DNA from: Leisingera sp. ANG-M7
GTDB lineage: Bacteria > Pseudomonadota > Alphaproteobacteria > Rhodobacterales > Rhodobacteraceae
DNA: 64,000 nucleotides
NCBI RefSeq assembly: GCF_000813965.1
Contig: NZ_JWLI01000007.1
Location: 1-64,000 of the forward strand
Direction: 5' to 3'
Shown here: piece after piece, positions 24,043 through 64,000 of the stretch
How positions within the stretch are numbered: the stretch's first letter is position 1
How the letters are laid out: every line of letters starts with the position of its first letter
The notes under the pieces: generated by a model
What the model was told of the DNA's origin: nothing
The model's database searches: none
What the model saw: the letters and a program-made list of their open reading frames with translations, nothing else
Made by a program: the position numbers and the translations under genes

Positions 24043-24058
24043 TTAACGTCTTGTTAAC
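24043..24058. promoter_or_regulatory. CtrA box (full site)
   Basis: TTAA-N7-TTAAC, matching the CtrA consensus at every fixed position. It lies 78 bases before the start of the 113-residue gene (plus) and 86 bases before ogt (minus). CtrA is the cell-cycle and motility master regulator of alphaproteobacteria; binding here is inferred. Confidence 0.75.
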
Positions 24059-24136
24059 CAGTGCTAAAGGTTTCCCGCCGGGTTGTATCAAATTCTAATA
24101 AAGTGAGCATCAAGAACAGAGCTAAAGGTCAGTAAA

Positions 24137-24478: not shown

Positions 24479-24532
24479 GCACGGCCGGAACCGGCCCGAT
24501 GGAATAGCAACAAACTCCACCGGCGGAATGTG

Positions 24533-24548
24533 TTAACCTGCAGTTAAG
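24533..24548 (+). promoter_or_regulatory. CtrA box (full site)
   Basis: TTAA-N7-TTAAG lies 58 bases before the start of the 116-residue gene. The spacing suits an activator site overlapping the -35 region. The last base deviates from the preferred C. Confidence 0.72.
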
Positions 24549-24606
24549 CCTATTGTGGTAAAAACCGTTTTAAGATCGGTTCAATGCCTCTGCGAAGGAC
24601 CCTCTG

Positions 24607-24957
24607 ATGTTTATACCAGTTTCGGGACGTATAGATCCTATCAAACCGAACCGCGGGTTTCTAACCGCCCGCCCCGTTGTCCGATCCGACGATCCGGACA
24701 AAAGCGAATCCGCCGACAACACGCCGCGCGGGCAAGAGGAGCAGCTGCCGGATGCGCTGCATCCGGAAGACGACAACCCTGTCTGGGATACTCCCGGTCC
24801 GCAAACACCTGTATCCGCCGATGACTTGCTTCACGAAAACGCGGTGCTGGCGGAGCATCTGCTGATGCAGCGCGCCTGGCCTGCAGACCGGATCACCGCA
24901 GGTGAAGCCAAGGCCGCCTTTCACGGTTATGAAGAGGCCAGGTCGCTAACGGCCTGA
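24607..24957 (+). CDS. Small acidic hypothetical protein (MF-x-PVS type), CtrA-box gene
   Basis: I do not recognise the family. The 116-residue protein is acidic and probably disordered in the middle (RSDDPDKSESADNTPRGQEEQLPDALHPEDDNP), with a helical C-terminus (DDLLHENAVLAEHLLMQRAWPADRI). GAAGGA precedes the ATG. It has its own CtrA box and converges with the LysM gene pair, with 19 bases between the stops. Confidence 0.65.
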   Translation: MFIPVSGRIDPIKPNRGFLTARPVVRSDDPDKSESADNTPRGQEEQLPDALHPEDDNPVWDTPGPQTPVSADDLLHENAVLAEHLLMQRAWPADRITAGEAKAAFHGYEEARSLTA

Positions 24958-24976
24958 CCGCTCTCTTCCGCTTACC

Positions 24977-25999: not shown

Positions 26000-26013
26000 A
26001 CAGGCATCCTCCC

Positions 26014-47850: not shown

Positions 47851-50800
47851 GACAGGTTCTTGGCTATACGCTCGCACTGGGCCTGACCTTGGCGCCGGTT
47901 GCTGCGCAGGAGACCACAACGGAGGACGCCGGCGGGCTGCTGGTTGATTTCCTGGAGGACACCCTGTCAGGCGACAGCCGCTATATCAGCGTGTCGGGGC
48001 TGGAGGGCGCGCTTTCCTCTGAGGCCAAGATCAAGAAGATCACCGTCGCCGACGAGAAAGGCATCTGGCTGACCGTCGAGGGTGCGGTTCTGGACTGGAA
48101 CCGGCTGGACCTGTTGCGCGGGCGGTTCTCGGTCAATGAGCTGTCGGCAGAGCGCATCGCGGTGGAACGCGCGCCCGAAGCGCTGCCGCCGGACCCGGAG
48201 CTCCCGGAAGCCGAGACCACGCCCTTTGCCCTGCCGGAACTGCCGGTGGCCATCGAGCTGGGCCAGATCAAGGCAGCCCGGATCGAGCTGGGCGAGGATC
48301 TGGCGGGCAGCGCAGCCACTCTGCGGGTCGACGGCGCGCTAAAGCTGGCAGACGGCGCGCTGGACACCAAGCTGGAGGCTGCACGGCTGGACAAGCCCGG
48401 CGACCACATCCGGCTGGAGGCAGCCTATGCCAATGAAACCCAGCAGATCACCCTGGACCTGTCGGTGGATGAGGCCGCAGGCGGGCTGATTTCTCGCGGG
48501 CTGGACCTGCCGGGCAATCCCGATCTGCAGCTGACGGCCAAGGGCAGCGGCCCGGTCACGGATTTCGCTGCCGATATCGCCTTCAGCACCAATGGCACCG
48601 AGCGGCTCGGCGGCCAGGTGGTGCTGGCAGCCCGTCCCCTGCCCGAAGACGCCGCCCCGGAAACGCCGCGCGACATCGGGTTTTCCGCCGATCTGGGCGG
48701 CAATATCGACGTGCTGCTGCCGCCGGTGCACCGGCCGTTCTTCGGCCCCGGCCTGCGCCTGAACGTCAAAGGCCTGCGCGAAGGCAGCGGCGCTGTAACG
48801 CTGGATACGCTGGTCCTGCGCACCAACGCCCTGCGGATCACCGGCGCCGCAGCGCTGGATGCCGGCGGCAAGCTGGCCACCGCCAACCTGAAGACCGCGA
48901 TCACCCCGCCCGCCGGCCAGGCTGCTGTCACGCTGCCGACCAGCGACGGCCAGACCACGCTGGCCAAGGCCGACCTGCTGTTGCAGAAAACACTCGAAGG
49001 CCGCTGGGTGCTGGACGGGGTGCTCAATCAACTGAGCCACCCGGGTGCGCTGGTGGATGCGGCTGAGATCGTCGGCCGCGGCACCTTGGATCAGACCAGC
49101 GGCTTTGCGCTGGAGGGCCGGCTGACGGCCGGCCTCAGCGGGTTCCAGCCGCGCGACCCGGCGCTGGCCAAGGCAACCGGCAATGAGATCCGCTTTGAAG
49201 GCACCCTGAGCACCGATGGCCCCGGCGCGCTGCATGTCACGGATATGGAGCTGCGCGGCAGCGATTATCAGGCCGCAGGCGATGTGGCCTTTGACGGTCT
49301 GGAAGAGGGGTTGAATGTTACCGCGGACCTGGCGGCGGGCGCGGCGGATCTCGGCCGTTTTTCCGAGCTGGCAGGCCGCCCTCTGGGCGGCGCGGTGCAG
49401 GCCGTGGTCACGGGATCCTTCATTCCGCTGACTGGCGGTTTTGACACCGATCTTTCAGTGCAGGCGCAGGACTTGTCTGCGGGCATCGCCCAGGCGGATG
49501 AACTGCTGGCTGGCACCACAACCGTCGCTCTGACGGCGGCACGGGATGAGGACGGCATAACCATAGACAGGTTTGACCTGTCCGGCAGCGCGCTGGCTGC
49601 CACAGCCAAGGGCACGCTGAACAACCAGGCCGGCCAGCTGGATATCACCGCCAGGCTGAACCGGCTGGAGGTTCTGGTGCCGCAGGCGCCAGGCACGCTG
49701 GAGCTGGCCACCACCCTCAGCCGCGCCGGCGACACCTTCAGCGGCGTGGCGGAGCTGAAGGGGCCGCATACCTCCAGCGCCAAGCTGGACGGATCGGTGA
49801 CGCTCGAAGGGGATGCCGATTTCACCTTTGCTGCCGCCTGGAATGAGCTGGAACGCTTTGTGCCGCAGCTGGCAGGCAAGCTGAGCGCCGAGGGTGTGGC
49901 GGAACGGCGCAATGGCGAATGGCAGGCGACTGTTCAAGCCGCCGGCCCTGCGGGGATATCCGTGGAGACCGAGGCCCGTTTCACCGAAAGCAACGGCAGC
50001 ACCGATCTGAAGTTCGACGCGGTAGTGGCAGAGCTGCAGCGGCTGGTGCCGGACCTGCCCGGCCGGCTGGCGGCCGCGGGCACTGCGACCCGGCGCGGCG
50101 GCACCTGGACGGTGGACAGCACCGCCAGCGGCCCGGCAGGCATCGACAGCCGCATCTCAGGCAGCTGGAACGAGGCGAAGGGCACCGCCGATGTTACCGC
50201 CAAGGGCACCCTGCGGCTGGAAGGCCTCAATCCCTTTATTTCCCCCAACCTCATGCAAGGGCCTGCGAACTTCGACATGTCGATACGCGGCGTGCCGGCA
50301 CTGGACGGGGTCAGCGGCACCATCTCCATCCCCGGCGCCTCGCTGGCGATCCCGGCCGCGGCGCAGCGAGTGGATGACATCAACGCGACAGTCTCCATTG
50401 CCCGCTCCAATGCACAGGTGCAGGTTTCTGCCCGCCCCCGCGATGGCGGCACGGTGCGGATCAGCGGTCCGGTCGGGCTGCTGCCGCCGTTCAACGGCAA
50501 CCTGCAGATCGCCATCGGCGATGTGGTGGTGACCGACCACCTGTCTTATGAATCCCTGCTGAACGGCAGCCTGGCGATGTCCGGAGCCATGGCGGGCAAC
50601 AACCGGATTGCAGGCCAGATCAACGTTGGCGAGACCAACATCAATCTGAATACCGCAGGCGGTTCGGTGTCTTCCGCGCCGATCCCGCCAATCCGCCATG
50701 TGGGTGCACCGGGCGACGTGCGCCGGACACTGGCCCGCGCCGGGCTCACCGGCACCGGCAGCAGCAGCGCGGGCGGCTCCGGCAGAACAGACCTGGACAT

Positions 50801-51476
50801 CATGATCAGCGCGCCGTCTCGCATCTTTGCCCGCGGCCGCGGGCTGCGCTCAGAACTGGGCGGCCAGATCCACCTGCGCGGCACCACCGCGCGGCCCTCG
50901 CCCTCCGGCCAGATCAGCCTGATCCGCGGTACCTTCGATATCCTCGGACGGCGGCTGGAACTGGATGAGGGCCGGATCACCCTCTTGGGCGATCTGAAGC
51001 CCTATCTGGAGTTCAAATCCACCGCTGCCACGGAGCAGGGCACCGCAACGCTTGAAATCTCCGGCCGGGTCGATGCGCCGGAGATCAAGGTGACCTCCGA
51101 TCCGCCGCGACCTAGCGAAGAGGCTTTGGCGCTGCTGCTGTTCGGTGACAATATCGGGGACATCTCGCCCTTGGCGCTGGCACGGCTGGCAGGCTCTGCC
51201 CTCACGCTCAGCGGCCGAGGCGGCGGCGCCCAGAGCAAAGTGCGCGAAGCCACCGGCGCGGCAGATGTTGATATCGGCACCGACAACCTAGGCACCGGGC
51301 AGCTGGGGCTGGGCGGTTACGTGGCGGAGAACGTCTATACCGATTTCAACGTCAACACCCAGGGCGACAGCGAGCTGAGCATCAATCTGGATGTCACCAA
51401 AAGCCTGACGGTTCAGGGCACGGTGGACAGCGAGGGAGAGACTGGCGTCGGCCTGTTTTTCAAGCGGGATTACTGA
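47847..51476 (+). CDS. tamB: Translocation and assembly module protein TamB
   Basis: The 1209-residue protein has an N-terminal signal-anchor (about 3-20), a long repetitive beta-rich body that should form a hydrophobic groove between the membranes, and the C-terminal DUF490 domain (QGTATLEISGRVDAPEIKVTSDPPRPSEEALALLLFG, LSINLDVTKSLTVQGTVDSEGETGVGLFFKRDY). It starts with TTG overlapping the tamA stop by four bases. Such AsmA-like proteins are implicated in lipid transport to the outer membrane. Confidence 0.93.
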   Translation: MRQVLGYTLALGLTLAPVAAQETTTEDAGGLLVDFLEDTLSGDSRYISVSGLEGALSSEAKIKKITVADEKGIWLTVEGAVLDWNRLDLLRGRFSVNELSAERIAVERAPEALPPDPELPEAETTPFALPELPVAIELGQIKAARIELGEDLAGSAATLRVDGALKLADGALDTKLEAARLDKPGDHIRLEAAYANETQQITLDLSVDEAAGGLISRGLDLPGNPDLQLTAKGSGPVTDFAADIAFSTNGTERLGGQVVLAARPLPEDAAPETPRDIGFSADLGGNIDVLLPPVHRPFFGPGLRLNVKGLREGSGAVTLDTLVLRTNALRITGAAALDAGGKLATANLKTAITPPAGQAAVTLPTSDGQTTLAKADLLLQKTLEGRWVLDGVLNQLSHPGALVDAAEIVGRGTLDQTSGFALEGRLTAGLSGFQPRDPALAKATGNEIRFEGTLSTDGPGALHVTDMELRGSDYQAAGDVAFDGLEEGLNVTADLAAGAADLGRFSELAGRPLGGAVQAVVTGSFIPLTGGFDTDLSVQAQDLSAGIAQADELLAGTTTVALTAARDEDGITIDRFDLSGSALAATAKGTLNNQAGQLDITARLNRLEVLVPQAPGTLELATTLSRAGDTFSGVAELKGPHTSSAKLDGSVTLEGDADFTFAAAWNELERFVPQLAGKLSAEGVAERRNGEWQATVQAAGPAGISVETEARFTESNGSTDLKFDAVVAELQRLVPDLPGRLAAAGTATRRGGTWTVDSTASGPAGIDSRISGSWNEAKGTADVTAKGTLRLEGLNPFISPNLMQGPANFDMSIRGVPALDGVSGTISIPGASLAIPAAAQRVDDINATVSIARSNAQVQVSARPRDGGTVRISGPVGLLPPFNGNLQIAIGDVVVTDHLSYESLLNGSLAMSGAMAGNNRIAGQINVGETNINLNTAGGSVSSAPIPPIRHVGAPGDVRRTLARAGLTGTGSSSAGGSGRTDLDIMISAPSRIFARGRGLRSELGGQIHLRGTTARPSPSGQISLIRGTFDILGRRLELDEGRITLLGDLKPYLEFKSTAATEQGTATLEISGRVDAPEIKVTSDPPRPSEEALALLLFGDNIGDISPLALARLAGSALTLSGRGGGAQSKVREATGAADVDIGTDNLGTGQLGLGGYVAENVYTDFNVNTQGDSELSINLDVTKSLTVQGTVDSEGETGVGLFFKRDY

Positions 51477-51554: not shown

Positions 51555-52592
51555 GTGGGCAAAACACTCACCCAGAAACTGGCAGGGCGCGCCAGCCGTA
51601 TCGCGCACCGCGCCAGGTTCCGCGCGTCGCTGCGTCATCTGCACGGGCCTGCCCGGTGCTTTGCCGCGCCTGATCAGGTGGTGCTGATCGCACTGGTGCG
51701 CGACGGGGCCTATTACCTGGATGTGTTTTTTGACCACTACCGGCGGCTGGGTGTATCGGCGTTTGTCTTCTTCGACAACGGCTCCTCTGACGGCACGATT
51801 GACCGCATCCGGCAGGAACCGGACACCGCGGTGCTGCAGTCCCCCCTGCCCTGGCTGAAATATGAAAACACCTTCCGCGCGTATGCCGCGGACCGCTATG
51901 GCCGGGACCGCTGGTGCTTGTTTGCAGACATGGATGAACTGTTCGACTTTGAGGGCAGCGCTGCGGTGGGGCTGGGCGGGCTGACACGCTACCTGGCTCA
52001 AAATGGGTACACGGCGCTGCAAGCCGAAATGCTGGAGATGTTTCCCGAAGGTCCGCTGGCTGCGGCGCGCGCGCTGTCTTATTCCGAAGCGGTGCAGAGC
52101 TTCCGGTTTTCTGACATAAGCACCGTGTCGGCGGTGGACTACATGTCCGGCAACACGGGCTTTGCCTATTACCTGCGCCAGAACGCCTTGCCGCCCGGCG
52201 GTGCGCAGATGCAGTTCGGCGGCGTGCGCGGCAAGGTCTTTGGCGAGACCTGCTGCCTCAGCAAGCACCCGCTGGTGTTCAATGGGCCGGGCGTTCAGGC
52301 AGCTGTGCATCCGCATGCCTCGGCAGGCGTGCGGGTGGCCGATATTGAGGGTCTGATACGCCACTACAAGTTTGCCAGCGACAGTCTGGCCCGGGATTTG
52401 CAGATCCAGGCCGAAACGGTCTCAGAACACGGCGAGGACCGCCAGCGCAGCAGCGCAATGCAGGCGCAGCCGGAACTCAGCCTGTGGTCCGCCGACGCGG
52501 CCGCGGACGCCGGGATATCGCGGCTGCAGCACCAGGGTTTCTTGCGCGGGTCATCTCGATACCGGGCGTTTCTTGCCGGGGCGGCCGCATGA
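51555..52592 (+). CDS. Glycosyltransferase family 2-like protein
   Basis: The 345-residue protein has a GT-A type fold: VLIALVRDGAYYLDVFFDHYRRLG near 42-66, FFDNGSSDGTIDRI near 72-85 and the metal-binding FADMDELFDF near 122-131. It belongs to the group of GT2-like proteins with a DMDE motif. The start is GTG with AGGGGA four bases upstream. Donor and acceptor are unknown. It overlaps the next glycosyltransferase by four bases (ATGA). Confidence 0.85.
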   Translation: MGKTLTQKLAGRASRIAHRARFRASLRHLHGPARCFAAPDQVVLIALVRDGAYYLDVFFDHYRRLGVSAFVFFDNGSSDGTIDRIRQEPDTAVLQSPLPWLKYENTFRAYAADRYGRDRWCLFADMDELFDFEGSAAVGLGGLTRYLAQNGYTALQAEMLEMFPEGPLAAARALSYSEAVQSFRFSDISTVSAVDYMSGNTGFAYYLRQNALPPGGAQMQFGGVRGKVFGETCCLSKHPLVFNGPGVQAAVHPHASAGVRVADIEGLIRHYKFASDSLARDLQIQAETVSEHGEDRQRSSAMQAQPELSLWSADAAADAGISRLQHQGFLRGSSRYRAFLAGAAA

Positions 52593-53539
52593 GCGCCCCC
52601 GCCATCGCTGCAGTGGTCATTGGCCGCAACGAAGGGGAACGGCTGATCCGCTGCCTGCGTTCGCTGCAAGGCCAGGTGCAGCAGCTTGTCTATGTCGACA
52701 GCGGCTCCACGGACGGGTCGGCAGCGGCGGCGCGGGAATTGGGCGCCTTGGTGGTGGATCTGGATCTCAGCCAGCCGTTCACCGCCGCCCGCGCCCGAAA
52801 TGCCGGTTTGGCGGCGCTGCAGACCGGGGTCGAGTTTGTGCAATTTGTGGACGGCGACTGCGAGGTGGACCCGGGCTGGATCGCCAAAGCAGCGGATTTC
52901 CTGCAAGCACACCCCAAGGCAGCAGTGGCCTGCGGGCGGCGGCGGGAGCGGTTTCCGGAAGCGTCCGTCTACAACCGGCTTTGCGATGCGGAATGGAACA
53001 CGCCTGCAGGAGAGGCCGCAGCCTGCGGCGGCGACGCACTGATGCGGGTGGCGGCGGTCTATACCGCGGGCGGCTACCGCGAGGCTCTGATCGCCGGGGA
53101 AGAGCCGGAATTGTGCCTGCGCCTGCGCCGGGCAGGCTGGCAGGTGTGGCGGCTGGAGGCTGAGATGACCCTGCATGACGCACAGATGCTGCGCTTCACC
53201 CAATGGTGGAACCGCAGCCGCCGCGCAGGCCACGCCTTTGCCGAAGGCGCCGCCTTGCATGGCACCGGGCCGGAGCGGCACTGGGTGGCCGAAACCCGCC
53301 GCGCGCTGCTGTGGGGCGCCGCCCTGCCTGCCGGTATTGCCCTGGCAGCACTGGCATATCCCTTGTTGCTGATGATTGCGCTCATCTACCCGGCGCAGGT
53401 GCTGCGCCTGTCACGCCGCATGAGGTTTGAACAGGCGCTGTTCACGGTTCTCGGTAAGTTCGCCGAGGCCGCAGGCGCGCTGGAGTTTTACTGGCGCCGC
53501 TGGCGCGGCTCGGCCCGCGGCATATTGGAGTACAAATAG
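52589..53539 (+). CDS. Glycosyltransferase family 2
   Basis: The 316-residue protein has VVIGRNEGERLIRCLRSL and VYVDSGSTDGS at the start, FVDGDCEVDPGW (DxD) near 87, and EEPELCLRLRRAGW later, all typical of GT2. Two C-terminal hydrophobic spans ([23 protein letters not shown]) anchor it in the inner membrane. It is coupled to the previous gene. Both probably build a cell-surface glycan. Confidence 0.9.
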   Translation: MSAPAIAAVVIGRNEGERLIRCLRSLQGQVQQLVYVDSGSTDGSAAAARELGALVVDLDLSQPFTAARARNAGLAALQTGVEFVQFVDGDCEVDPGWIAKAADFLQAHPKAAVACGRRRERFPEASVYNRLCDAEWNTPAGEAAACGGDALMRVAAVYTAGGYREALIAGEEPELCLRLRRAGWQVWRLEAEMTLHDAQMLRFTQWWNRSRRAGHAFAEGAALHGTGPERHWVAETRRALLWGAALPAGIALAALAYPLLLMIALIYPAQVLRLSRRMRFEQALFTVLGKFAEAAGALEFYWRRWRGSARGILEYK

Positions 53540-53545
53540 CAGTTC

Positions 53546-54298
53546 CTATTGCACCCGAATGCGCCAAGCCGTGCGGATCTGCCCCGGCAGAATGGCCAGG
53601 CACTTTGCATAGCGAGGCACCATCCGCGACGGACTGGACAGCGCCCGCCACAGCCATTCCATCGCAATCGCGCGGACCCAGGCCGGGGCGCGTTTCTGAT
53701 GGCCGCCGAGAAAGTCCAGACCGGCCCCGACAGAGGCAAAACCAGCTGCGGGCGCCAGCTTGCGGCCGCGTTGGGCAAACTGCTCCTGTTTCGGCGCTCC
53801 CAGCGCCAGAAAACACAGGCAAGGACCGGTTTCATCCAGCCGGTGCAGGATCTGATCCGCCTCTTCCCCTTCTGGATCAAAACAGCCGGAGGGGGCATGA
53901 GTCCAGGCAACCTCCAGCCCCGGCACCGCATCCGTCAGCGCCTCTTCGGCATCCTGCAGCGCCTCATCCGTGCTGCCCGCCAGCACCACCGGCACCTTGG
54001 CCTCAACCGCCAGGCGGCACAGCGGCAGCACCATGTCGGAGCCCGGCATCAGCTCCACCGGGCGGCGGGCAAGATGTGACAGCCAGACAATGGGGCGCCC
54101 GTCCGCCACCACCAGATCCTGCGCCTGATATGCGGACAGGAAGTCCGCCGACCCTGCCATCTTGACCAGGTGGTCCAGGTTCACTGTCGCCAGCGCAAAG
54201 CCTTGCCCTGCCTTGAAGCGGGCTCGGATTTCGGCTTCCAGCCCGGTCCGCGTGGCCGTGTTCACCGCAACCCTGCGGCCTTGGCATTCAAAAAACAT
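53546..54298 (-). CDS. WecG/TagA/CpsF family glycosyltransferase
   Basis: The 250-residue GT26 protein resembles enzymes that add the second sugar (for example N-acetylmannosamine) to a lipid-linked intermediate. Motifs are VNLDHLVKMAGSADFLSAYQ, VVADGRPIVWLS, ALGAPKQEQF and GAGLDFLGGHQKRAPAWVRAIAMEWLWRAL. The ATG at 54298 follows GGGGA. It is convergent with the GT2 gene and divergent from the polymerase gene. Confidence 0.92.
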   Translation of the reverse strand: MFFECQGRRVAVNTATRTGLEAEIRARFKAGQGFALATVNLDHLVKMAGSADFLSAYQAQDLVVADGRPIVWLSHLARRPVELMPGSDMVLPLCRLAVEAKVPVVLAGSTDEALQDAEEALTDAVPGLEVAWTHAPSGCFDPEGEEADQILHRLDETGPCLCFLALGAPKQEQFAQRGRKLAPAAGFASVGAGLDFLGGHQKRAPAWVRAIAMEWLWRALSSPSRMVPRYAKCLAILPGQIRTAWRIRVQ

Positions 54299-54490
54299 GG
54301 GCGTCCCCGGGTCTGCTTTGCCCCGTGATAGCGCCGCCGCCGCCGCCCGGCCAGTCTTGCGGGCACCGAACCGCTGGCAGCGTGGCAAAGCTGCACCCCG
54401 TTAACCCGTTGTTGCAAATCCGCGCGACAGCGCGACCCGCAACAGGTAAACTTTGATGTAAATACCGGGGAACTGAGGGAGCACGGGGCT

Positions 54491-55954
54491 TTGCCCAACG
54501 CTTTGGCCTATCTGATGCTGCTGGCCTGGCCGCTGGCCAGCCTGATCCTGTTCCGGCGCTTGCCGCTGGAGCGGGCCATCCTGTGGTGCATCATTGCCGG
54601 CTACCTGCTGCTGCCGCCGCTGGCCGAGTTCGACCTGCCGCTGGTGCCGGACTTGGACAAATTCGCCATCCCCTCGGTGATGGCCTTTGTGCTGTGCGTA
54701 TTTCTGCTGCGCAAACCGGTGCCGCTGCTGCCACGGCACCCGGCGGTGAGGACGCTGGTGCTGCTGTTCGTGTTCGGGGTCATTCCCACCGTGCTGACCA
54801 ATGGCGAGCCGATCCTGTTCCGCAAGATCGCCAATTCCGACCCGATCATCTTTCTGACCGATCAGCTGCCGGGGCTGCGCTGGCGCGACCTGGGGTCTGT
54901 GGTCATCAACCAGATGATCGTGCTGATCCCTTTCCTGCTGGCGCGCCGGTATCTGTCCACCCCGGAGGCCCAGCGCGAACTGCTGCTGGCGCTGATGATT
55001 GGCGGCCTAGCCTATACAGTCCCTTCGCTGATCGAAATCCGCTTCAGTCCGCAAATCAACGTCTGGATCTACGGCTTCTTCCAGCATGATTTCAGCCAGA
55101 TGATACGTCAGGGCGGCTTCCGTCCCATCGTGTTCCTGCCGCATGCGCTGTGGCTGGCATTCTTCATGCTGTCGGCGCTGCTGGCGGCCACCGCGCTGGC
55201 CCGCACCGCAGCAGGCGGGGACCGCATCCGCCTGCTGCTGGCCGCCGGTTACCTGTTTGCGGTGCTGGTGCTGTGCAAGAGCCTCGCCTCGCTGGCCTAT
55301 GCGCTGGCCTTTGTGCCGGTTGTTGCCTTGGCGCCGCTGCGCTGGCAGCTGCGTGCGGCCCTGCTGCTGGCTGTGATTGCCGTGGTCTATCCGATGCTGC
55401 GCAACACCGGGCTGGTCCCGACCGAGGAACTGGTGGCCCAGGCCGGAGCTATCAGCGCCGAGCGGGCGCATTCGCTGAACTACCGCTTTGAAAACGAAGC
55501 ACAGATGCTGGCCCGTGCCGCGGAGAAGCCCTGGTTCGGCTGGGGCGGCTGGGGCCGCAACCTGGTGCGGCACGAAGAAACCGGGCAGATCCTGTCGATC
55601 CCGGACGGGCGCTGGATCATCGTTTTCGGCACCTTCGGCTGGCTGGGTTACATCGCCGAGATGGGGCTTCTGGCCGCACCGCTGATGCTGCTGGCTGTGG
55701 CGGCAGCCCGCGCGCCGCGGGGCAGCGTGTCGCCCTATGCCGCTCCGATTGCCCTGATCCTGGCGGCCACCATGGTGGACATGCTGCTGAATGCGACGCT
55801 CATTCCGATCACCTGGATGTGCGCCGGATCCGTTCTGGGCTATGCCGAGAGGCTGCTCTACCCCGGCTTGTTCCAAAAGAAGCCCGCGCTATTTGGCGGG
55901 ACGCAGGCGCTGATGCCTGACACCGGACGGCCTGAGCGGCGCAGCATCCTGTGA
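54491..55954 (+). CDS. O-antigen ligase/polymerase-like membrane protein
   Basis: The 487-residue protein has about 11-12 hydrophobic spans and a periplasmic loop between about 275 and 370. The loop carries KPWFGWGGWGRNLVRHE and GRWIIVFGTFGWLGYIAEMG, typical of Wzy/O-antigen ligase-like proteins. It probably polymerises or ligates a lipid-linked glycan at the inner membrane. The start is TTG with GAGGGAG about nine bases upstream. It is followed by the polyketide synthase. Confidence 0.82.
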   Translation: MPNALAYLMLLAWPLASLILFRRLPLERAILWCIIAGYLLLPPLAEFDLPLVPDLDKFAIPSVMAFVLCVFLLRKPVPLLPRHPAVRTLVLLFVFGVIPTVLTNGEPILFRKIANSDPIIFLTDQLPGLRWRDLGSVVINQMIVLIPFLLARRYLSTPEAQRELLLALMIGGLAYTVPSLIEIRFSPQINVWIYGFFQHDFSQMIRQGGFRPIVFLPHALWLAFFMLSALLAATALARTAAGGDRIRLLLAAGYLFAVLVLCKSLASLAYALAFVPVVALAPLRWQLRAALLLAVIAVVYPMLRNTGLVPTEELVAQAGAISAERAHSLNYRFENEAQMLARAAEKPWFGWGGWGRNLVRHEETGQILSIPDGRWIIVFGTFGWLGYIAEMGLLAAPLMLLAVAAARAPRGSVSPYAAPIALILAATMVDMLLNATLIPITWMCAGSVLGYAERLLYPGLFQKKPALFGGTQALMPDTGRPERRSIL

Positions 55955-56215
55955 TGCCGCAATGTTTCCGTTTTTCCGGCCGAAATTGACACAATGCGTC
56001 CACAGGACAGCCGCATGGATTGACGAAAGTAAATTTGAGTTCACCCGGCCCCGCGGAACAGATGGGGATCCAAGCCGCCAGGCCGGGCCAGCAGCCGGGG
56101 AGCACCCCGGCACCCGAAAATAAACCCGTCCGGCGGGCCCTGCCATCTTCGCAAAGCGGATTGGCTGCGGCGTGCCGGGTTGTTTGCGAAGGGCTAGTGG
56201 GGTCAGGTATTGACG
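55955..56215. promoter_or_regulatory. Leader region of the polyketide synthase gene
   Basis: This 261-base stretch has no gene. It contains TTGACA at 55986 without a clear -10, a perfect hairpin GCCGGGG/CCCCGGC (56094-56111, 4-base loop), and a 9-bp inverted repeat CTTCGCAAA/TTTGCGAAG (56147-56155 and 56183-56191) ending 24 bases before the ATG. The last could be an operator or an mRNA structure. Confidence 0.5.
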
Positions 56216-59200
56216 ATGCAGGATGGGACATCCGCAGCGGGGGGCGCTGCAAAACAGACAAGGCCCGGTGACATTGCCATTGTCGGGCTGTCGGTAACAG
56301 TGCCGGGCGCCGCATCTGCCGAAGCGTTCTGGCAGAACCTGCGCGCAGGCATTGAATCGATTGAGGTGCTGGACCGCGAAACGCTGCTGGAAAACGGCGA
56401 GCGTGCATCGGTCATGGCCGACCCGAACTATGTGCCCGCCTCGGCCCGGCTGCAGGGATTTGACGAGTTTGACGCCGAATTCTTCGGCTTCAGCCCCAAG
56501 GAAGCCGCGATCCTGGACCCGCAGCACCGCAAGTTCCTGGAGGTGGCCTGGGGGGCGATGGAAAACGCAGGCCATCCGCCCGAAAGCATCAATGGCCCCA
56601 TCGGTGTTTACGCGGGCTGCGGCATGGGCAGCTATTTCTACTTCAATATCTGCTCCAACCCGGGCCTGGTCGATGACGTGGGCATGTTCCTGCTGCGCCA
56701 CACCGGCAACGACAAGGACTTCCTGTCAACCCGCGTGAGCCATGTCTTCGACCTTCATGGCCCTTCGGTGAACGTGCAGACCGCCTGCTCCACATCACTG
56801 GTGGCGGTGCATTACGCCTGCAAGGCCCTGCGCGAAGGCGAGTGCGGTATGGCGCTGGCGGGCGGTGTCACCATCGAGCTGCCGCAGGGCCGCGGCTACC
56901 TTTATAAGGAAAACGAGATCCTTAGTCCGGATGGCCACTGCCATGCGTTCGACCACCGGGCGCAAGGCACGGTCTTCGGCTCCGGTGCCGGCGCTGTGGC
57001 GCTCCGGCGGCTGGAGGATGCGATTGCCGACGGCGATCACATCTGGGCGGTCATCAAGGGTTCTGCCATCAACAACGACGGCGCGGACAAGGCCGGCTAT
57101 CTGGCCCCCTCGGTGGGCGGCCAGTCGGCAGCGGTGCAAATGGCGCTGGAGGCCGCGGGCACCCCGGCGGAGACCATCGACTACGTGGAATGCCACGGCA
57201 CCGGAACTTATCTGGGCGACCCGATCGAAGTCTCCGCCCTGACCGACGCCTACCGCGCCACCACCACTGACACGGGCTATTGCCGCATCGGCTCGGTCAA
57301 GACCAACATCGGCCATCTGGACACCGCGGCGGGCGTTGCCAGCCTCACCAAGACCGCGCTGGCGCTGCATCACAAAGAAATTCCGCCTTCGCTTGGGTAT
57401 GAGGCGCCGAACCCGGCGATTGATTTTGAGACCTCGCCGTTCCGCGTGAACGCCGCCCTCACCCCGTGGACACCGCACAAGGGGCCGCGGCGCGCCGGCA
57501 TCAACTCGCTGGGAGTGGGCGGCACCAATGCGCATCTAATTCTGGAAGAGGCCCCGGAACGCGCGGCCTCGGAAGAAAGCGATTTCCCGTTCCAGATCCT
57601 TTGTGTTTCCGGCCAGTCCAAGGCGGCGCTGGACGCCAACACCCAGGCCCTTGCGGACTATTTGAAATCCAATCCCGCGGCTGATCTGGCCGATATGGCC
57701 TTTACCCTCAAGGAGGGCCGCCGCGGCTTTGCCAAGCGGCGGGTTCTGGTGGCGGAAACCGCTGCCGAAGCCATTGACCTGATTTCAGAAAACGATCCCC
57801 GCAAGGTCTTTACCCACGACCGCCTCAGCGGCAGTCCCGAGGTGGTGTTCATGTTCCCCGGCGGCGGCGCGCAATACGCGGGCATGGCGCGGGATCTATA
57901 CGAGACCGAACCGGTCTTTGCCGAGTGGATGGACCGCGGGCTGGACCATCTGCAGCAGAGCCTCGACTACGATATCCGCGCCATCTGGCTGCCGGAAGCA
58001 GGCGAGGAGGATGCGGCCAACGCCAAGCTGCAGCAGCCCTCGGTGCAGCTGCCGCTGATCATGATCGTCGAATACGCGCTGGCGCAGCTGTGGATCAGCT
58101 GGGGCGTGAAGCCCGCCGCGCTGGTCGGCCACTCAATGGGCGAGAACACCGCCGCCTGCCTGGCCGGTGTGATGTCCTTTGAGGACTGCATTGATCTGGT
58201 CCTCTTGCGCGGGCGGCTGTTTGACACCGTGCCCGCAGGCGGCATGCTGTCCATCGCCCTGCCGCTGGCCGAGGTTGAGGCCATCATCGGCGATGATCTG
58301 GATATCGCCAGCGTGAACGCGCCCTCGCTCACCGCCGTCTCCGGCCCGCAGGAAGCGCTGGACAGGCTGTCGGCAGAGCTGACCGCCCGCGAGGCCGAAC
58401 ACCAGCGCATCCCCATCGACATCGCCGCCCACTCGCGGATGCTGGACGGCATCCTGCAGGACTATGGCGATTTCATCCGCAATCTGACCCTGTCGGCGCC
58501 CGGCCTGCCGGTGATTTCGAACCGCACCGGGGCTGCCTTGACCGCGGAACAGGCCACCAGCGCTGATTACTGGGTCGGCCAGCTGCGCAATACCGTGCGC
58601 TATGCCGATTGTATCGAGACCCTTGCCAAGACCCCGGACCGGGTGTTCCTGGAAGTCGGCCCCGGCAAGGCCCTCAGCGCCTTGGCGCAGATGTCGCCTG
58701 CGGTGAAACAGGGGCAGGTGCTCAGCACGCTGCGCCATCCCGATCAGCAGGTGATGGACGACAGTTATTTTTTCGGCGTCATCGGTCGGCTCTGGGCCTG
58801 CGGGGTGGAGGCCGACTGGCCGCAGATCTGGGGCGAGGCGCGCCGCAACCGCCTGCCTTTGCCGGGCTATGCATTCCAGCGCAGCCGCTATTTCATCGAG
58901 CCGGGGAAACCAGCCGCTGAGAGCGAGGGTGACGCCCCGTCCCGTCACGATGATCTGGGCGAATGGGGCTACCGCCCGGCCTGGCGTCCGCGGCTGGCCG
59001 ATTGCGCGCTGGATGTGGCGCAAGAGCTGGCGCAGGAACTGCACAGCTGGCTGATCTTCGAGGACGAGGCAGGCCACGCCGCCCGCATTGCCGAAAGGCT
59101 GGAGGCTGCAAACCACAGCGTTGTGCGTGTCCGCGCAGGCGACACGTATGCGCAGCTTTCACCCGCCTCCTATATCCTGCCGCCGGAACAGGGCCGCGCC

Positions 59201-62200
59201 GCCTATGGCGCCCTGCTTGCGGATCTGGCAGAGGCCGGGCGACTGCCGGACCGCATCGCGCATTTCTGGCTGGTGACCGAGGGCGAAAGCTTCCGCCCCG
59301 GTTCCTCCTTCTTTGACCGCAACCTTGAGATGGGATTCCATTCCCTGACCGCACTGGCGCAGGAACTGGGCAATGCCGATCTGCCCGGCCCGGCGCATCT
59401 GACGGTCTTTACCACCGGTGCCGCGCAGGTCCGGGATGAGGCGCTGCCCTACCCGGAAAAGGCCATGATCGCAGGCCCGCTTGGGGTGATCCCGCGCGAG
59501 CTGCCGGGGCTGACCTGCGCCGCGGTGGACATCGAACTGCCGCAGACGCCGCGAGGCATATTCGCCCGCCGCAATCCCGAGCAGGCCGATATCACTTCCC
59601 GCCTGCTGGAAGAGCTGATGGCCGATCCCGCCAGCACTTCGGCTGCCTGGCGCGGGGAGAAACGGTTCGAGCTCAGCTGGCGCCCGCAGCCGCTGCCCGA
59701 GCCGGAAACCCCGCCCTTCAAACAGGGCGGCCACTACCTGATCACCGGCGGCTATGGCGGCATCGGCCTGACCATTGCGGACCACCTGATGCGGAACTAC
59801 GGCGCCAGGGTCTCGCTGATCTCCCGCGGCGGTCTGCCGCCGCGCGAGACCTGGGAGCGGTATCTGGCCAGCCACAGCCCGGCCAACCGCACCGCCCAGC
59901 GCATCCGAGCAGTCATGGCGCTGGAGGCGAATGGCAAAGGTGCGGTGCTGCCGCTCGCTGCCGACGTCTGCAACAGCGGCGACCTGCGTGCGGCACGGGA
60001 GCAGGCCGAGGCGGTCTTTGGCCCCGTCACCGGGGTGTTCCATGGGGCCGGCGTCATCCATGACGGTCCGCTGCTGGCCAAGGACGAAGACCAGATCGCC
60101 CGGGTCCTGGCCCCCAAGGTCAGCGGACTGCGGGCGCTTGATACTGTGTTCCCGGACGGCAGCCTGGAGCTGATGGTGCTGTTTTCCTCCTCCTCCACCG
60201 TGACCCGTCCAGCGGGCCAGGTGGATTACATCGCTGCCAACGAATACCTCAACGCCTGGGCCCAGCACCGCGCGGGCGGTCACACGCAGGTCATTGCCGT
60301 GGATTGGGGCGTCTGGGCGGATACCGGCATGGCCGCTGACGCCATGGCAGGGCGCAATGGAAACGCCGGCGCCAGCACGCCCGAGCCCTGCCCGCAGCCG
60401 TTGCTGCAGCAGCAGGCGTTTGATGCCGCGGGCAACCGCATCTTCACCCCCGGCTTCAGCACCGCGGACTGGCTGCTGGATGAGCACCGCACCAAGGATG
60501 GCACCGCGCTGGTGCCCGGCACCGGCTATATCGAAATGGCCGCCGAGGCGTTGGCGGCCATTGGTGTGGAAGATCCTTTCGAGATCCGGGATCTCTACTT
60601 CCTGCGCCCGCTGATTGCAGAAGCAGGCCATCCGCGCGAGGCACTGGTAAAGTTAGAAGCTAATGAAAATGGTTATGAACTGTTTGTTTACTCGGGGTTT
60701 ACAAATGGTTACCGTTTGAATTGTCAGGCAATGCTGGCCTTAACGGCGGCGGCAGAACGCCCCGCCCCCCTCCCCCTCAAGACGATTTTCACCCGATGCC
60801 CGGAGGAGCAGGCGCCTGTTCGCAGGCGCCTGCGTTCCCCGCAGGAGGCGCATCTGAATTTCGGCCCGCGCTGGCATGTGCTGAACCGCGCAGCGCTGGG
60901 GGACGGTGAAGGGATTGCCGCCCTGTCGCTGCCGGATGCGGCGGCTGGCGACGGCTGCCTGCTGCACCCCGGCCTGCTGGATCTGGCCACTGGCTGGGCG
61001 ATGCAGCTGATCCCGGGTTACGAAGGCACCGCGCTGTGGGTGCCAGTCTCCTACGGCACCATCCGGGTCTATGCGCCGCTAACTCAGCAAGTCTTCAGCC
61101 ACATGCGCCTCGCCAGCAGTGATGCCAATGGCTCAGCCGCCTTCGACGTGACCCTGACCGGCCCGGACGGCACCGTGCTTGTGGAAATCGAGGGTTTCCG
61201 GATGCAGCGCCTTGCCGGCGGCTTTGACGCGGCCGCAGAACAGGGCGAGGCGGATGCAACAGCCGCCCAGCTGGGGCTGGAACCCGCCAGCAGCCCGCAG
61301 CCGCTGTCGCCCGAGGAGCGCCGCTTGCAGCTGAATATCTCAAACGGCATCAAGGCAGAGGAAGGCGGTGAGGCTCTGGCCCGCGCCCTGACCGCTGGCT
61401 TGCCGCAGGTGGTGGTTTCCTCACTGGACTTGCCAGCCCTGATCGCCCAAGCGGAGCAAAGCACACCGGCTGAGGCGGAGGCCCAGACATTTGACCGGCC
61501 GCAGCTCGACACCGACTATGTCGCTCCGCGCAACCCGGTGGAAGAGCAGCTGGCAAAGCTGTTTGCCTCGCTCCTGGGCGTCAGCCAGGTCGGTATAGAA
61601 GACAGTTTCTTTGACCTCGGCGGCCACTCCCTGATCGCGGTGCGGCTGTTTGCGCAGGTGAAACGCGCCTTTGATGTGGAATTCCCGCTGTCGGTTCTGT
61701 TCGAGGCGCCCAGCGTTGCCGCGCTGGCGGAACGGATCATTGAACGCACCGGCGGCGGAGTTGCTGAGGAGCCGGGCGGCGGCACGCAGGCTGCCGAAGA
61801 GAAGCCGCAGTTCACCCACCTGGTGCAGCTGCACCCCGGCGACGGCACCGGGCGGCGGCCTTTCTTCCTGGTTGCAGGCATGTTCGGCAACGTGCTGAAC
61901 CTCCGGCACCTGGCGCTGCTGGTGGGCAAGGACCGCCCGGTCTATGGCCTGCAAGCCAAGGGGCTGGTAGGCAGTGATGCGCCGCATGACAGGATTGAGG
62001 ATGCCGCCCGCAGCTGCCTGGACGAGATCCGCCGGATCCAGCCCGAAGGCCCCTATCTGCTGGGCGGCTTCTCCGGCGGCGGCATCACCGCCTATGAGAT
62101 GGCACAGCAGCTGAAGCAGCTGAGCCAGGAAACAGCGGCGCTGATCCTGCTGGATACGCCGCTGCCGGTGCGCCCGGCCCTGTCCCGGCAGGACAAGGCG

Positions 62201-62668
62201 CGGATCAAGCTGGCGGAACTGCGCGGCAAGGGCGTTGGCTACCTTGGTGAATGGGCCAAGAACCGGATCGCCTGGGAGTTTGAAAAACGCCGCGCCAGAC
62301 CGGCGGAAACCGGCGCTTTGCCCGAATTCAACAACCGCAAGATAGAACTGGCCTTCCGTGCGGCAGTCGAAAGCTATGGCCTGAAACCCTGGGATGGCCC
62401 GCTCACCCTGTTCCGCCCGCCCTTGGACCGCAAGTGGCAGGTCTCGGGCGGCAATTGGGTCAGCAGCGAACGCGAATATGTGTTCGCCGACAACGACTGG
62501 ACCTGCTGGGCGCCCGCCGTCGAGGTGGACGAAGTGCCGGGCGACCATGACAGCATGGTGCTGGTGCCGAACGTCAGCGTGCTGGCAGCCGGCGTCAAGA
62601 CGCGGCTCGATACCGCAGACCGGGCAGCAGCCTCCAGCCCGTCCCGCTCCATCCGGGCGGCGGAGTAA
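56216..62668 (+). CDS. Type I polyketide synthase, KS-AT-KR-DH-ACP-TE
   Basis: The 2150-residue single-module synthase has, in order: ketosynthase with C191, H327 and H367 (TACSTS, ECHGTGT, KTNIGHL); acyltransferase with S640 (GHSMGE); ketoreductase with GGYGGIG near 1180 and Y1338/N1342; dehydratase with H1424 and D1589 (HPGLLDLA); acyl carrier protein with S1805 (LGGHSL); and thioesterase with S1953 (GFSGGG) and H2111. There is no enoylreductase or methyltransferase. All catalytic residues I can check are present. KR before DH is the order of iterative PUFA and enediyne synthases. The product should be a beta-reduced, unsaturated acyl chain released by the thioesterase; length is unknown. 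A TTG at 56210 is an alternative start. Codons 1478-1505 are AT-rich. Confidence 0.93.
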   Translation: MQDGTSAAGGAAKQTRPGDIAIVGLSVTVPGAASAEAFWQNLRAGIESIEVLDRETLLENGERASVMADPNYVPASARLQGFDEFDAEFFGFSPKEAAILDPQHRKFLEVAWGAMENAGHPPESINGPIGVYAGCGMGSYFYFNICSNPGLVDDVGMFLLRHTGNDKDFLSTRVSHVFDLHGPSVNVQTACSTSLVAVHYACKALREGECGMALAGGVTIELPQGRGYLYKENEILSPDGHCHAFDHRAQGTVFGSGAGAVALRRLEDAIADGDHIWAVIKGSAINNDGADKAGYLAPSVGGQSAAVQMALEAAGTPAETIDYVECHGTGTYLGDPIEVSALTDAYRATTTDTGYCRIGSVKTNIGHLDTAAGVASLTKTALALHHKEIPPSLGYEAPNPAIDFETSPFRVNAALTPWTPHKGPRRAGINSLGVGGTNAHLILEEAPERAASEESDFPFQILCVSGQSKAALDANTQALADYLKSNPAADLADMAFTLKEGRRGFAKRRVLVAETAAEAIDLISENDPRKVFTHDRLSGSPEVVFMFPGGGAQYAGMARDLYETEPVFAEWMDRGLDHLQQSLDYDIRAIWLPEAGEEDAANAKLQQPSVQLPLIMIVEYALAQLWISWGVKPAALVGHSMGENTAACLAGVMSFEDCIDLVLLRGRLFDTVPAGGMLSIALPLAEVEAIIGDDLDIASVNAPSLTAVSGPQEALDRLSAELTAREAEHQRIPIDIAAHSRMLDGILQDYGDFIRNLTLSAPGLPVISNRTGAALTAEQATSADYWVGQLRNTVRYADCIETLAKTPDRVFLEVGPGKALSALAQMSPAVKQGQVLSTLRHPDQQVMDDSYFFGVIGRLWACGVEADWPQIWGEARRNRLPLPGYAFQRSRYFIEPGKPAAESEGDAPSRHDDLGEWGYRPAWRPRLADCALDVAQELAQELHSWLIFEDEAGHAARIAERLEAANHSVVRVRAGDTYAQLSPASYILPPEQGRAAYGALLADLAEAGRLPDRIAHFWLVTEGESFRPGSSFFDRNLEMGFHSLTALAQELGNADLPGPAHLTVFTTGAAQVRDEALPYPEKAMIAGPLGVIPRELPGLTCAAVDIELPQTPRGIFARRNPEQADITSRLLEELMADPASTSAAWRGEKRFELSWRPQPLPEPETPPFKQGGHYLITGGYGGIGLTIADHLMRNYGARVSLISRGGLPPRETWERYLASHSPANRTAQRIRAVMALEANGKGAVLPLAADVCNSGDLRAAREQAEAVFGPVTGVFHGAGVIHDGPLLAKDEDQIARVLAPKVSGLRALDTVFPDGSLELMVLFSSSSTVTRPAGQVDYIAANEYLNAWAQHRAGGHTQVIAVDWGVWADTGMAADAMAGRNGNAGASTPEPCPQPLLQQQAFDAAGNRIFTPGFSTADWLLDEHRTKDGTALVPGTGYIEMAAEALAAIGVEDPFEIRDLYFLRPLIAEAGHPREALVKLEANENGYELFVYSGFTNGYRLNCQAMLALTAAAERPAPLPLKTIFTRCPEEQAPVRRRLRSPQEAHLNFGPRWHVLNRAALGDGEGIAALSLPDAAAGDGCLLHPGLLDLATGWAMQLIPGYEGTALWVPVSYGTIRVYAPLTQQVFSHMRLASSDANGSAAFDVTLTGPDGTVLVEIEGFRMQRLAGGFDAAAEQGEADATAAQLGLEPASSPQPLSPEERRLQLNISNGIKAEEGGEALARALTAGLPQVVVSSLDLPALIAQAEQSTPAEAEAQTFDRPQLDTDYVAPRNPVEEQLAKLFASLLGVSQVGIEDSFFDLGGHSLIAVRLFAQVKRAFDVEFPLSVLFEAPSVAALAERIIERTGGGVAEEPGGGTQAAEEKPQFTHLVQLHPGDGTGRRPFFLVAGMFGNVLNLRHLALLVGKDRPVYGLQAKGLVGSDAPHDRIEDAARSCLDEIRRIQPEGPYLLGGFSGGGITAYEMAQQLKQLSQETAALILLDTPLPVRPALSRQDKARIKLAELRGKGVGYLGEWAKNRIAWEFEKRRARPAETGALPEFNNRKIELAFRAAVESYGLKPWDGPLTLFRPPLDRKWQVSGGNWVSSEREYVFADNDWTCWAPAVEVDEVPGDHDSMVLVPNVSVLAAGVKTRLDTADRAAASSPSRSIRAAE

Positions 62669-62673
62669 CCATC

Positions 62674-63690
62674 ATGGCCCAGCAGCGCATCCTCATCATC
62701 CTTCTGAATTTCCGTACCCCGGACATGACATTGCAGGCCGCTGAAACGGCGCTGTGCGAGCTGGAAGACCTGCCGGGCGAGCTGTTGATCATCGACAACG
62801 GATCCGGCGACAGCTCCTTTGACCAGATCCGGGCGGCTGCCCGGGCACGCGGCTGGCTGGACAGCAACCGGGTGCGGGTAATCGCCTCGCCGGTGAACGG
62901 CGGCTTTGGCGCAGGCATGAACATCGGCCTCGGCACCGGCCTCGCGGACGGCAGCGCACCAGAGTTCTACTACCTCCTGAACTCCGACGCTTTTGTGCAG
63001 GGGGACACCATCCGCACCCTTCGCGATTTCCTGCTGGAGCGTCCCGGCGCGGGCCTTGCAGGGTCTTATGTGCGCGGCACGGACGGGGCGCCGCACCGCA
63101 CCGCCTTCCGCTTTCCCTCCATCGCGGGCGAATTCGAGGCCAGCGTGCGGACCGGCATCTTCACCCGGCTGCTGAAACCCTGGGTCGTCGCCATGGAGAT
63201 GCCGCAGGCAGAGGTGCAGGTCGACTGGACTGCCGGCGCCAGCCTGATGATCCGGCGCGAGGCGATTGAGGCCGCTGGCGGTTTTGACGAGACTTTCTTC
63301 CTTTACTTTGAAGAGACCGACCTCTGCCGCCGCGCCGCACGGGCGGGCTGGCGCACCCACTATGTGCCCGCCAGCGAAGTGGCGCATATCGGCTCCGCCT
63401 CGACCGGCATGAAGGGCTGGCAGCGCACGCCGCGCTACTGGTTCGACTCGCGCCTGCATTACTTCGTCAAGAACCACGGCCGCGCCTATGCCGCCGCCGC
63501 CACGCTGGCCCGCATCACCGGCAGCCTGATCTATGGCCTGCGCCGCCTGATCCAGAACAAGCCGCAGGCCGATCCGCCGCATTTCCTGCGCGATCTCTGC
63601 CTGCACAGCCTGCGCGCGCCGTTTGCGCCGCGCCACCACCCCACTTCGGAAACGCGCCTCCCTTCTCCGCTTGCAAAGGAGCAGAAATGA
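62674..63690 (+). CDS. Glycosyltransferase family 2 (rhamnosyltransferase-like)
   Basis: The 338-residue protein has ILIILLNFRTPDMTLQAAETAL, IIDNGSGDSSF and SPVNGGFGAGMNIGL at the start, LLNSDAFV (DxD-like) near 100, and the WbbL-type GASLMIRREAIEAAGGFDETFFLYFEETDLCRRAARAGW block near 188-228. It starts five bases after the polyketide synthase stop, so they are cotranscribed. It may glycosylate the polyketide product or a shared glycan. Confidence 0.9.
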   Translation: MAQQRILIILLNFRTPDMTLQAAETALCELEDLPGELLIIDNGSGDSSFDQIRAAARARGWLDSNRVRVIASPVNGGFGAGMNIGLGTGLADGSAPEFYYLLNSDAFVQGDTIRTLRDFLLERPGAGLAGSYVRGTDGAPHRTAFRFPSIAGEFEASVRTGIFTRLLKPWVVAMEMPQAEVQVDWTAGASLMIRREAIEAAGGFDETFFLYFEETDLCRRAARAGWRTHYVPASEVAHIGSASTGMKGWQRTPRYWFDSRLHYFVKNHGRAYAAAATLARITGSLIYGLRRLIQNKPQADPPHFLRDLCLHSLRAPFAPRHHPTSETRLPSPLAKEQK

Positions 63691-64000
63691 CCGCATTCAC
63701 CTGTGCACTGATTGGCAATGAATCCCTTCTGATCGGCTGCGCCGACGCGCTGCTGGCCCGCGGCCACCAGATCCGGCCGGTGGTATCGCAGGATGCCGAC
63801 ATTCGCGCCTGGGCCGCGGACAAGGGGCTGGACATTCTGAACACTCCCGCAGAGCTCAATGGCGGCTTTGACTGGCTGCTGTCGATCGCCAACCTGACGG
63901 TGATCCCGGATGCGGTGCTGGCGCAGGCCGCCAAGGGCGCAGTTAATTTCCACGACGGCCCGCTGCCCCGCTACGCAGGCCTCAACACCCCGAACTGGGC
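63687..64000 (+). CDS. Formyltransferase-like protein, N-terminal part (cut by window end)
   Basis: The first 104 residues are visible. They resemble the N-terminal domain of 10-formyl-THF-dependent formyltransferases: TCALIGNESLLIGCADALLARGH at the start and AVNFHDGPLPRYAGLNTPNW, which corresponds to the catalytic His region of Fmt/ArnA-type enzymes. The start overlaps the glycosyltransferase stop by four bases and AAAGGAG lies five bases upstream. Similar formyltransferase domains can head nonribosomal peptide synthetases or act on amino sugars; the missing part is needed to decide. Confidence 0.75.
   Translation, partial: MTAFTCALIGNESLLIGCADALLARGHQIRPVVSQDADIRAWAADKGLDILNTPAELNGGFDWLLSIANLTVIPDAVLAQAAKGAVNFHDGPLPRYAGLNTPNW

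Follow-up and report, generated by a model that had tools for sequence, protein, structure and literature searches.

A predicted formyl-glycine assembly line encoded within exopolysaccharide loci of Leisingera and other Rhodobacteraceae

Why is a single-module type I polyketide synthase (PKS) encoded in the midst of genes for surface glycan assembly? The question is raised by a 64,000-base stretch of DNA from the alphaproteobacterium Leisingera sp. ANG-M7 (Rhodobacteraceae), referred to here as the window, which comprises bases 1–64,000 of a 419,149-base contig (NZ_JWLI01000007.1) in a 4.58-Mb genome; the 36 kb beyond the window were also read. An initial annotation had proposed that the synthase makes the acyl chain of a surface glycan, possibly one carrying a formylated sugar or amino acid. 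We consider it moderately probable that the PKS, the glycosyltransferase GT2c, a large protein named FALT, and a phosphopantetheinyl transferase (PPTase) constitute a two-protein nonribosomal peptide synthetase (NRPS)-PKS line producing a short residue, not itself a sugar, for an exopolysaccharide (EPS) of the Wzx/Wzy type; both the chemistry of this residue and its attachment are inferred. Our confidence differs between the parts of this proposal: it is high for a glycan locus with synthases built in, fairly high for glycine and a formyl group as the predicted substrates, and moderate for a single malonyl extension leading to a short acyl group; attachment to the repeating unit is a reasoned guess.

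The genes in question form a run on the forward strand, given below in contig coordinates; those from the PPTase onward lie outside the window on the same contig.

56210–62668, +, PKS: single-module type I synthase, 2152 residues as listed, with a possible ATG start 6 bases later
62674–63690, +, GT2c: glycosyltransferase between PKS and FALT, matching ordinary GT2 Pfam families
63687–68252, +, FALT: 1,521 residues, identified by Pfam and NCBIfam domains; 63687–64000, part of the formyltransferase domain, falls in the window
68249–68938, +, PPTase: Sfp-type
68935–69873, +, SGNH1
69870–72380, +, SGNH2-glycosidase protein: 836 residues
72377–73213, +, GT2d

PKS and GT2c are separated by a gap of 5 bp, and the following five junctions, as far as GT2d, are ATGA overlaps of 4 bp; synthases and glycan genes therefore make up one run, and they are probably translationally coupled. 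In Leisingera sp. SS27, among the closest relatives compared, the corresponding proteins are 95% (FALT), 96% (PKS) and 99% (GT2c) identical.

The association of the synthases with the glycan locus is not due to chance. Matches to one or more of five proteins of the window's locus (Wzx, Wzy, Wzz-like, kinase and sugar transferase) were obtained in 92 of 102 loci from several lineages and in 1 of 20 control windows; in this comparison the references stem from the window's own locus, the controls are shorter than most of the 102 loci, and kinship is ignored. Over equal 20-kb stretches, matches were obtained in 17 of 20 loci versus 1 of 20 controls (Fisher p = 4e-7, kinship again ignored); of the 20 control windows, each of 20 kb, 19 were drawn from genomes that supplied the 20-locus set and one from the genome to which the window belongs. 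The initial assignment of the synthase to a glycan-assembly locus is thus borne out. The 102 loci comprised two plasmids, the best 80 of at least 504 confirmed relatives, and 20 weaker full-length matches from the family, the last hand-picked with the short contigs G069 and G245 and the separately studied G144 set aside. No two of their FALT proteins are more than 97% identical, and they fall into 94 groups at 90%. FALT is common in the family, with matches at E <= 1e-100 in 145 of 394 genomes of an evenly drawn family sample (partial matches and G144 included); at E <= 1e-200, a class-wide sample yielded 7 of 385 genomes, five of them from the window's family, its own genome among these.

Within these loci the order PKS>GT2c>FALT is kept in 99 of 102 (L131, L135 and L144 being the exceptions), and a PPTase homologue follows in 87 of the 99. 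Other glycan genes recur less regularly: the co-occurrence suspected for the PKS was found in 60 loci for the WecG-type protein and in 61 for the Wzy-like polymerase, while GT2b was matched in 46 and GT2a in 12, many stretches ending before it. Among the ten loci lacking the assembly genes, four (L038, L066, L086 and L107) are short contigs of 9.9–14 kb; in L076, L084, L105 and L131 the five assembly genes are unmatched but other glycan genes of the set are matched; neither L144 nor L147 has any match, although L147 possesses a polysaccharide deacetylase. Linkage and common descent cannot be told apart by the distance correlations of FALT with eight other genes (r 0.74–0.92), from which we draw no evidence.

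The surroundings of the cassette change. Within 3 kb upstream of the PKS, Wzy was found in 52 of the 102 loci, Wzx in 24 and neither in 14, with 12 stretches being too short; these states need at least nine changes on a FastTree tree of 97 PKS proteins, which carried long-branch warnings and in which the too-short loci were stateless. Glycan genes have been reshuffled between lineages, yet the cassette mostly stays in glycan loci. PKS proteins of Hydrogenophaga, a betaproteobacterial genus, branch among those of Rhodobacteraceae, the pattern that transfer would produce. Glycan genes of the set are matched in four of the five loci from this genus; the remaining one, L086, is a 10-kb contig without any. 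Within the same alphaproteobacterial PKS tree stands L046, labelled Nocardioides marinus, with a Leisingera-like cassette (77% FALT identity); the assembly is probably mislabelled.

Six loci outside the 102 extend this distribution. On plasmids of Ruegeria (L172) and Paracoccus marcusii (L173), PKS, GT2c and FALT lie among glycan genes. On four plasmids of Hyphomicrobiales the FALT specificity pattern described below is the same. In Aminobacter and Shinella, the PKS is divergent from FALT-PPTase; Aminobacter neighbours are annotated as O-antigen ligase, polysaccharide export and glycosyltransferase, the opposite flank having a TolC-family gene, and the Shinella neighbours as WecG, polyprenyl glycosylphosphotransferase and flippase. 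In the unannotated plasmids of Neorhizobium and Rhizobium grahamii, matches to WecG and Wzx occupy the same positions. A scan of 104 neighbouring open reading frames (ORFs; from 203 candidates in 10 loci of the Wzx-upstream and neither types) found glycosyltransferases to be the commonest of 105 Pfam families, and no MFS, ABC or TonB family among the 25 families looked at. Beside the cassette in L099 (22222–26565) are genes for an AT3-SGNH acyltransferase, a GMC oxidoreductase and an SDR protein, ORF clusters that recur in 7, 8 and 6 loci, respectively (e.g. L111, L115, L117), hinting at more acyl or oxidised decorations.

What would the synthases make? The initial annotation listed a formyltransferase-like gene at the window's end; the formyl domain is present, and the free gene is not, since the frame starting at 63687 is the beginning of the NRPS-type FALT. 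Its layout is Formyl_trans_N/C, a region without assignment, an AMP-binding adenylation (A) domain interrupted by Bac_luciferase, and a PP-binding carrier (T) domain. The N-terminal formyltransferase (F) fold retains the catalytic Asn-His-Asp. The A and T domains match PF00501, PF13193 and PF00550, with the attachment residue Ser1443 present in 104 of 105 homologues, and the inserted luciferase-like monooxygenase (LLM) scores 472 bits against the MupA/Atu3671 model TIGR04020 (cut-off 244.45). Alignment to 5u89, which we take to be DhbF, gave the specificity code DILQLGMIWK; the pattern DILQ-x-G-(M/F)-(I/V)-W-K holds in 105 of 105 homologues, and we presume that it denotes glycine. Sugar N-formyltransferases of glycan loci share their fold with the formyl domain; a free formyltransferase acting on a sugar was nonetheless rejected because the frame continues into A-LLM-T. 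Of the formylated sugar or amino acid initially suggested, the amino acid, glycine, stands as the likeliest use. In the P. marcusii plasmid pCP157_02 (L173, 21271–25862), FALT is annotated as two overlapping coding sequences, the formyltransferase part and the rest.

The best Protein Data Bank (PDB) matches of FALT are chains of LgrA, the linear gramicidin synthetase, which likewise combines an N-terminal formyltransferase, A and T in one protein; FALT differs in its LLM within the A domain, a region of ~230 residues before it, its PKS partner and its glycan locus. That region (about 293–525) is well modelled and has no Pfam match, and some NRPS chains align from residue 466 on. The matches listed by a fold search with residues 1–540 were formyltransferases, which is uninformative for 293–525; by eye, the region may be a remnant condensation domain. 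F domains are described as rare, with three products, in the accessible portion of PMC8949500. Flavin monooxygenases inserted into glycine A domains also occur in the myxothiazol and melithiazol lines, where the proteins are named MtaG and MelG. According to the available passages of PMC10204066, the glycine A domains of these two systems contain a monooxygenase between a4 and a5, as in FALT, and that of solanimycin SolF one between a8 and a9. These modules belong to antibiotic lines and follow other modules, whereas FALT is apparently an initiating, formylated module. An oxime-forming role modelled on althiomycin was considered and dropped, as PMC3445576, in the part available, credits a separate AurF-like enzyme rather than an inserted monooxygenase.

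The PKS domains, all on the forward strand, are as follows.

56270–57400, +, ketosynthase (KS): catalytic Cys193, His329 and His369 kept
57845–58681, +, acyltransferase (AT): catalytic Ser642 and His741 kept
59729–60322, +, ketoreductase (KR): catalytic Ser1327, Tyr1340 and Asn1344 kept
60398–61216, +, dehydratase (DH): catalytic His1426 and Asp1591 kept
61544–61738, +, acyl carrier protein (ACP): attachment residue Ser1807 kept
61937–62665, +, thioesterase (TE): catalytic Ser1955, Asp1982 and His2113 kept

These positions are kept in 95–97 of 97 homologues, the remainder being gaps. KR precedes DH, and no enoylreductase (ER) domain was found in Pfam and NCBIfam domain scans. The terminal TE and the absence of a loading domain fit a two-protein line running from FALT to PKS. 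With one module, no ER found and a formyl-glycine loader as partner, a C4-type short product is expected unless the synthase is iterative, and a long lipid chain is unlikely; the lipid-type acyl chain initially ascribed to the synthase is accordingly not upheld. In L006, a Tateyamaria omphalii plasmid, the PKS frame (19790–26202) is apparently interrupted, with a 1,875-residue ORF and the rest in another frame; no gene is annotated there.

Taken together, a model for the pathway emerges. The PPTase, judging by its family, would arm the carrier domains. FALT is predicted from its code to adenylate glycine and to load its own carrier domain; the F domain would formylate the amine, and the inserted monooxygenase would oxidise the glycyl unit, probably at the alpha carbon. 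The resulting N-formyl-(hydroxy)glycine starter would pass to the KS of the PKS, where one malonyl unit would be added and processed by KR and perhaps DH, giving a product of the type of a 4-formamido-3-hydroxybutanoyl or 4-formamidocrotonyl group, with or without an extra hydroxyl. In the least certain step, the TE or another acyltransferase would move this group onto one of the sugars in the repeating unit, perhaps that contributed by GT2c, prior to export by Wzx and polymerisation by Wzy. The SGNH proteins and the SGNH-glycosidase of the run would trim or re-acylate the polymer. A parallel is offered by the Dlt system, in which the adenylating DltA, a carrier protein and the SGNH-fold DltD equip a surface polymer with plain D-alanyl esters; the FALT cassette would similarly employ adenylation and carrier chemistry to supply an amino-acid-derived acyl group, whereas Dlt is devoid of formylation, oxidation and PKS extension.

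The run is flanked by the genes that such a model calls upon, namely Wzy-, Wzx-, Wzz- and kinase-like genes, a sugar transferase and glycosyltransferases; those from GT4 onward lie to the right of the window, where the initial annotation had advised reading on.

51555–52592, +, GT2a: glycosyltransferase family 2 (PF13704), Pfam match above cut-off
52484–53539, +, GT2b: glycosyltransferase family 2, Pfam match above cut-off
53546–54388, −, WecG/TagA/CpsF-family glycosyltransferase: Pfam and TIGR00696 above cut-off; best NCBIfam match, EPS_EpsA, below cut-off
54491–55954, +, Wzy-like polymerase: PF04932 at 21 bits, below the cut-off of 31.7; no match in the NCBIfam search
73345–74553, −, GT4 glycosyltransferase, outside the window
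74612–76159, +, Wzx flippase: PF13440 at 140 bits, above cut-off
76266–77597, −, Wzz-like gene: best NCBIfam match a polysaccharide chain-length determinant, below cut-off; Pfam matches absent or below cut-off
77625–78668, −, tyrosine-kinase-like gene: best NCBIfam match an autokinase, below cut-off; Pfam matches absent or below cut-off
78626–79495, −, initiating sugar transferase: PF02397 at 192 bits, above cut-off

All the genes first listed within the window (GT2a, GT2b, WecG-type, Wzy-like, PKS and GT2c) are present, the Wzy-like one by its sub-threshold PF04932 match only. Upstream, at 46048–51476, lies a pair of genes whose best NCBIfam matches are BamA/TamA-type Omp85 models and TamB, all below cut-off; past the sugar transferase, other gene kinds follow on the contig (sugar kinase, ABC-transporter types). 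PDB sequence searches with GT2c and with SGNH2 gave no match within the limits set. ORFs of neighbouring genes were called by a simple longest-first choice and may include antisense artefacts, long antisense frames in this GC-rich DNA being easily taken for genes; the long opposite-strand frames at L003 13345–14553 and 16266–17597 were rejected as such artefacts of the GT4 and Wzz-like genes.

Several observations weigh against this proposal. The glycine step is predicted from the code, which is presumed to denote glycine. Instead of transferring the group, the TE might merely release it as a free acid by hydrolysis. Inspection of SGNH2 by eye reveals no obvious signal peptide, and the window's PPTase, a member of a diverged family, is unmatched in 12 of the 99 ordered loci, some of these stretches being cut short. 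Three of 102 loci have no GT2c between the synthases, and the four Hyphomicrobiales loci show no match to it; GT2c is therefore not essential to the PKS-FALT pair, and its role may be indirect. In L144, PKS-FALT-PPTase occurs without GT2c, no glycan reference is matched in 20 kb and five scanned neighbours are non-glycan genes. Among the distant loci G673, G731 and G144, each with FALT immediately preceding a same-strand PKS, a Wzz/kinase-type gene adjoins the pair in G673; no glycan genes were found among the scanned neighbours in G731, and no match to the glycan references around the pair in G144. In the latter, a member of the window's family (G144:C1:382001-412000, L126-L127), the pair is part of an extended NRPS/PKS cluster that has another PKS and additional A domains. 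Further NRPS genes are also carried by Paracoccus and Hydrogenophaga loci, which could favour a lipopeptide-like product. Such extra genes stand in glycan loci near WecG or sugar transferase genes at L007 4684–8739, L173 1944–5822 and L088 18095–24022, those of Hydrogenophaga being AMP-ligase, carrier and C-A-T-TE; possibly they represent other assembly-line glycan decorations.

A rather unlikely alternative is that the product is a secreted hybrid NRPS-PKS metabolite, to which GT2c perhaps adds a sugar, and that the cassette's place beside EPS genes serves only co-regulation in biofilms. The multi-module setting of G144, the G731 setting and the extra NRPS genes fit this explanation, and published surveys, in the portions accessible, class such clusters as NRPS-like/T1PKS metabolite clusters (PMC10584327, PMC10608839, PMC8273931, PMC4062626). 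PMC10584327 reports the hybrid type in 18 of 37 species; its Roseibaca NRPS (4,527 nt) and T1PKS (6,333 nt), about 1 kb apart, match FALT-GT2c-PKS in size and spacing and probably belong to the same family, a comparison by gene sizes rather than sequences. The Roseibaca and Rhodoalgimonas orphan clusters are treated there and in PMC10608839, a figure of which compares the locus across four genomes, as metabolite clusters, unlike here; the main text of PMC10584327 contains none of the words glycosyl, formyl and exopolysaccharide. The P. marcusii CP157 plasmid cluster is presented in the available text of PMC8273931 as a possible antimicrobial source, and that plasmid carries the cassette among glycan genes. 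Phaeobacter inhibens possesses the PKS Inhi_1972 and, as one of three NRPSs, Inhi_1974 (PMC4062626, as accessible); two numbers apart, they are likely the same PKS-FALT pair. Further T1PKS/NRPS clusters are listed without a shown function in the accessible parts of PMC11225332, PMC11595833, PMC8383342 and PMC9728324. Against a secreted metabolite, i) the glycan genes recur in 92 of 102 loci versus 1 of 20 controls, ii) a glycosidase/SGNH gene sits in the same overlapping run, and iii) among scanned genes at contig 51555–79495 the Wzx flippase is the sole transporter, with no dedicated exporter and no resistance gene found. An NRPS and exporter directly downstream with synteny to a known cluster, and glycan genes varying independently, had been named at the outset as findings that would refute the glycan reading. 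Half of this holds: an NRPS-type module follows immediately downstream, and the surrounding glycan genes have been rearranged from one lineage to another. But Wzx is the only exporter-like gene, the surveys report no close known cluster in their accessible parts, and the glycan context is mostly kept.

Quite improbable is a second alternative, in which the PKS product goes to the polymer end or to an exported protein and GT2c acts on the acyl product itself. The place of GT2c between the synthases in 99 of 102 loci, nearer than any other glycan gene, agrees with it; the three exceptions do not, and GT2c belongs to ordinary GT2 families, with mycofactocin and rhamnosyltransferase NCBIfam matches that are weak and below cut-off. 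A lipid anchor or primer role has been proposed for the capsule synthases rkpA/wcbR. Least credible is an iterating synthase that makes such an anchor or primer here: rhizobial and Burkholderia type I PKSs do occur among capsule biosynthesis and export genes (PMC3908369, in the text available) and the window's PKS has DH and KR, but no ER was found and a glycine-coded formylating module is an unlikely lipid start. The rkpA/wcbR loci resemble the window's in arrangement, a type I PKS being embedded among polysaccharide genes; what sets the window's PKS apart is an NRPS-type partner that would load formyl-glycine, a PPTase of its own, and a terminal TE.

We return to a formyl-glycine line that decorates the polymer. 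A PKS in a capsule cluster thus has precedent; the formyl-glycine NRPS-PKS form appears undescribed in the open PMC literature searched, where, in the portions accessible and with subscription papers and supplements outside the scope, no paper proposing a glycan role for the NRPS-PKS pair was found. The cassette is widespread in the window's family and occurs in Hyphomicrobiales and Hydrogenophaga; that the common 'orphan NRPS/T1PKS metabolite clusters' are really glycan-decoration systems we rate at about even chances. What would surprise a specialist is the regularity of the arrangement together with the glycine-formyl-monooxygenase loader. If the proposal is true, assembly-line natural-product enzymology would be tied directly to a structural surface polymer, and the predicted substituent would be one not sought in sugar analysis. 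An NRPS/PKS cluster that is common yet uncharacterised in marine Rhodobacteraceae would then move from the antibiotic candidates to biofilm or surface chemistry. In many marine bacteria, an assembly line within a sugar-polymer locus probably supplies that polymer with a formylated amino-acid unit, where some genome surveys have presumed a secreted, drug-like compound.

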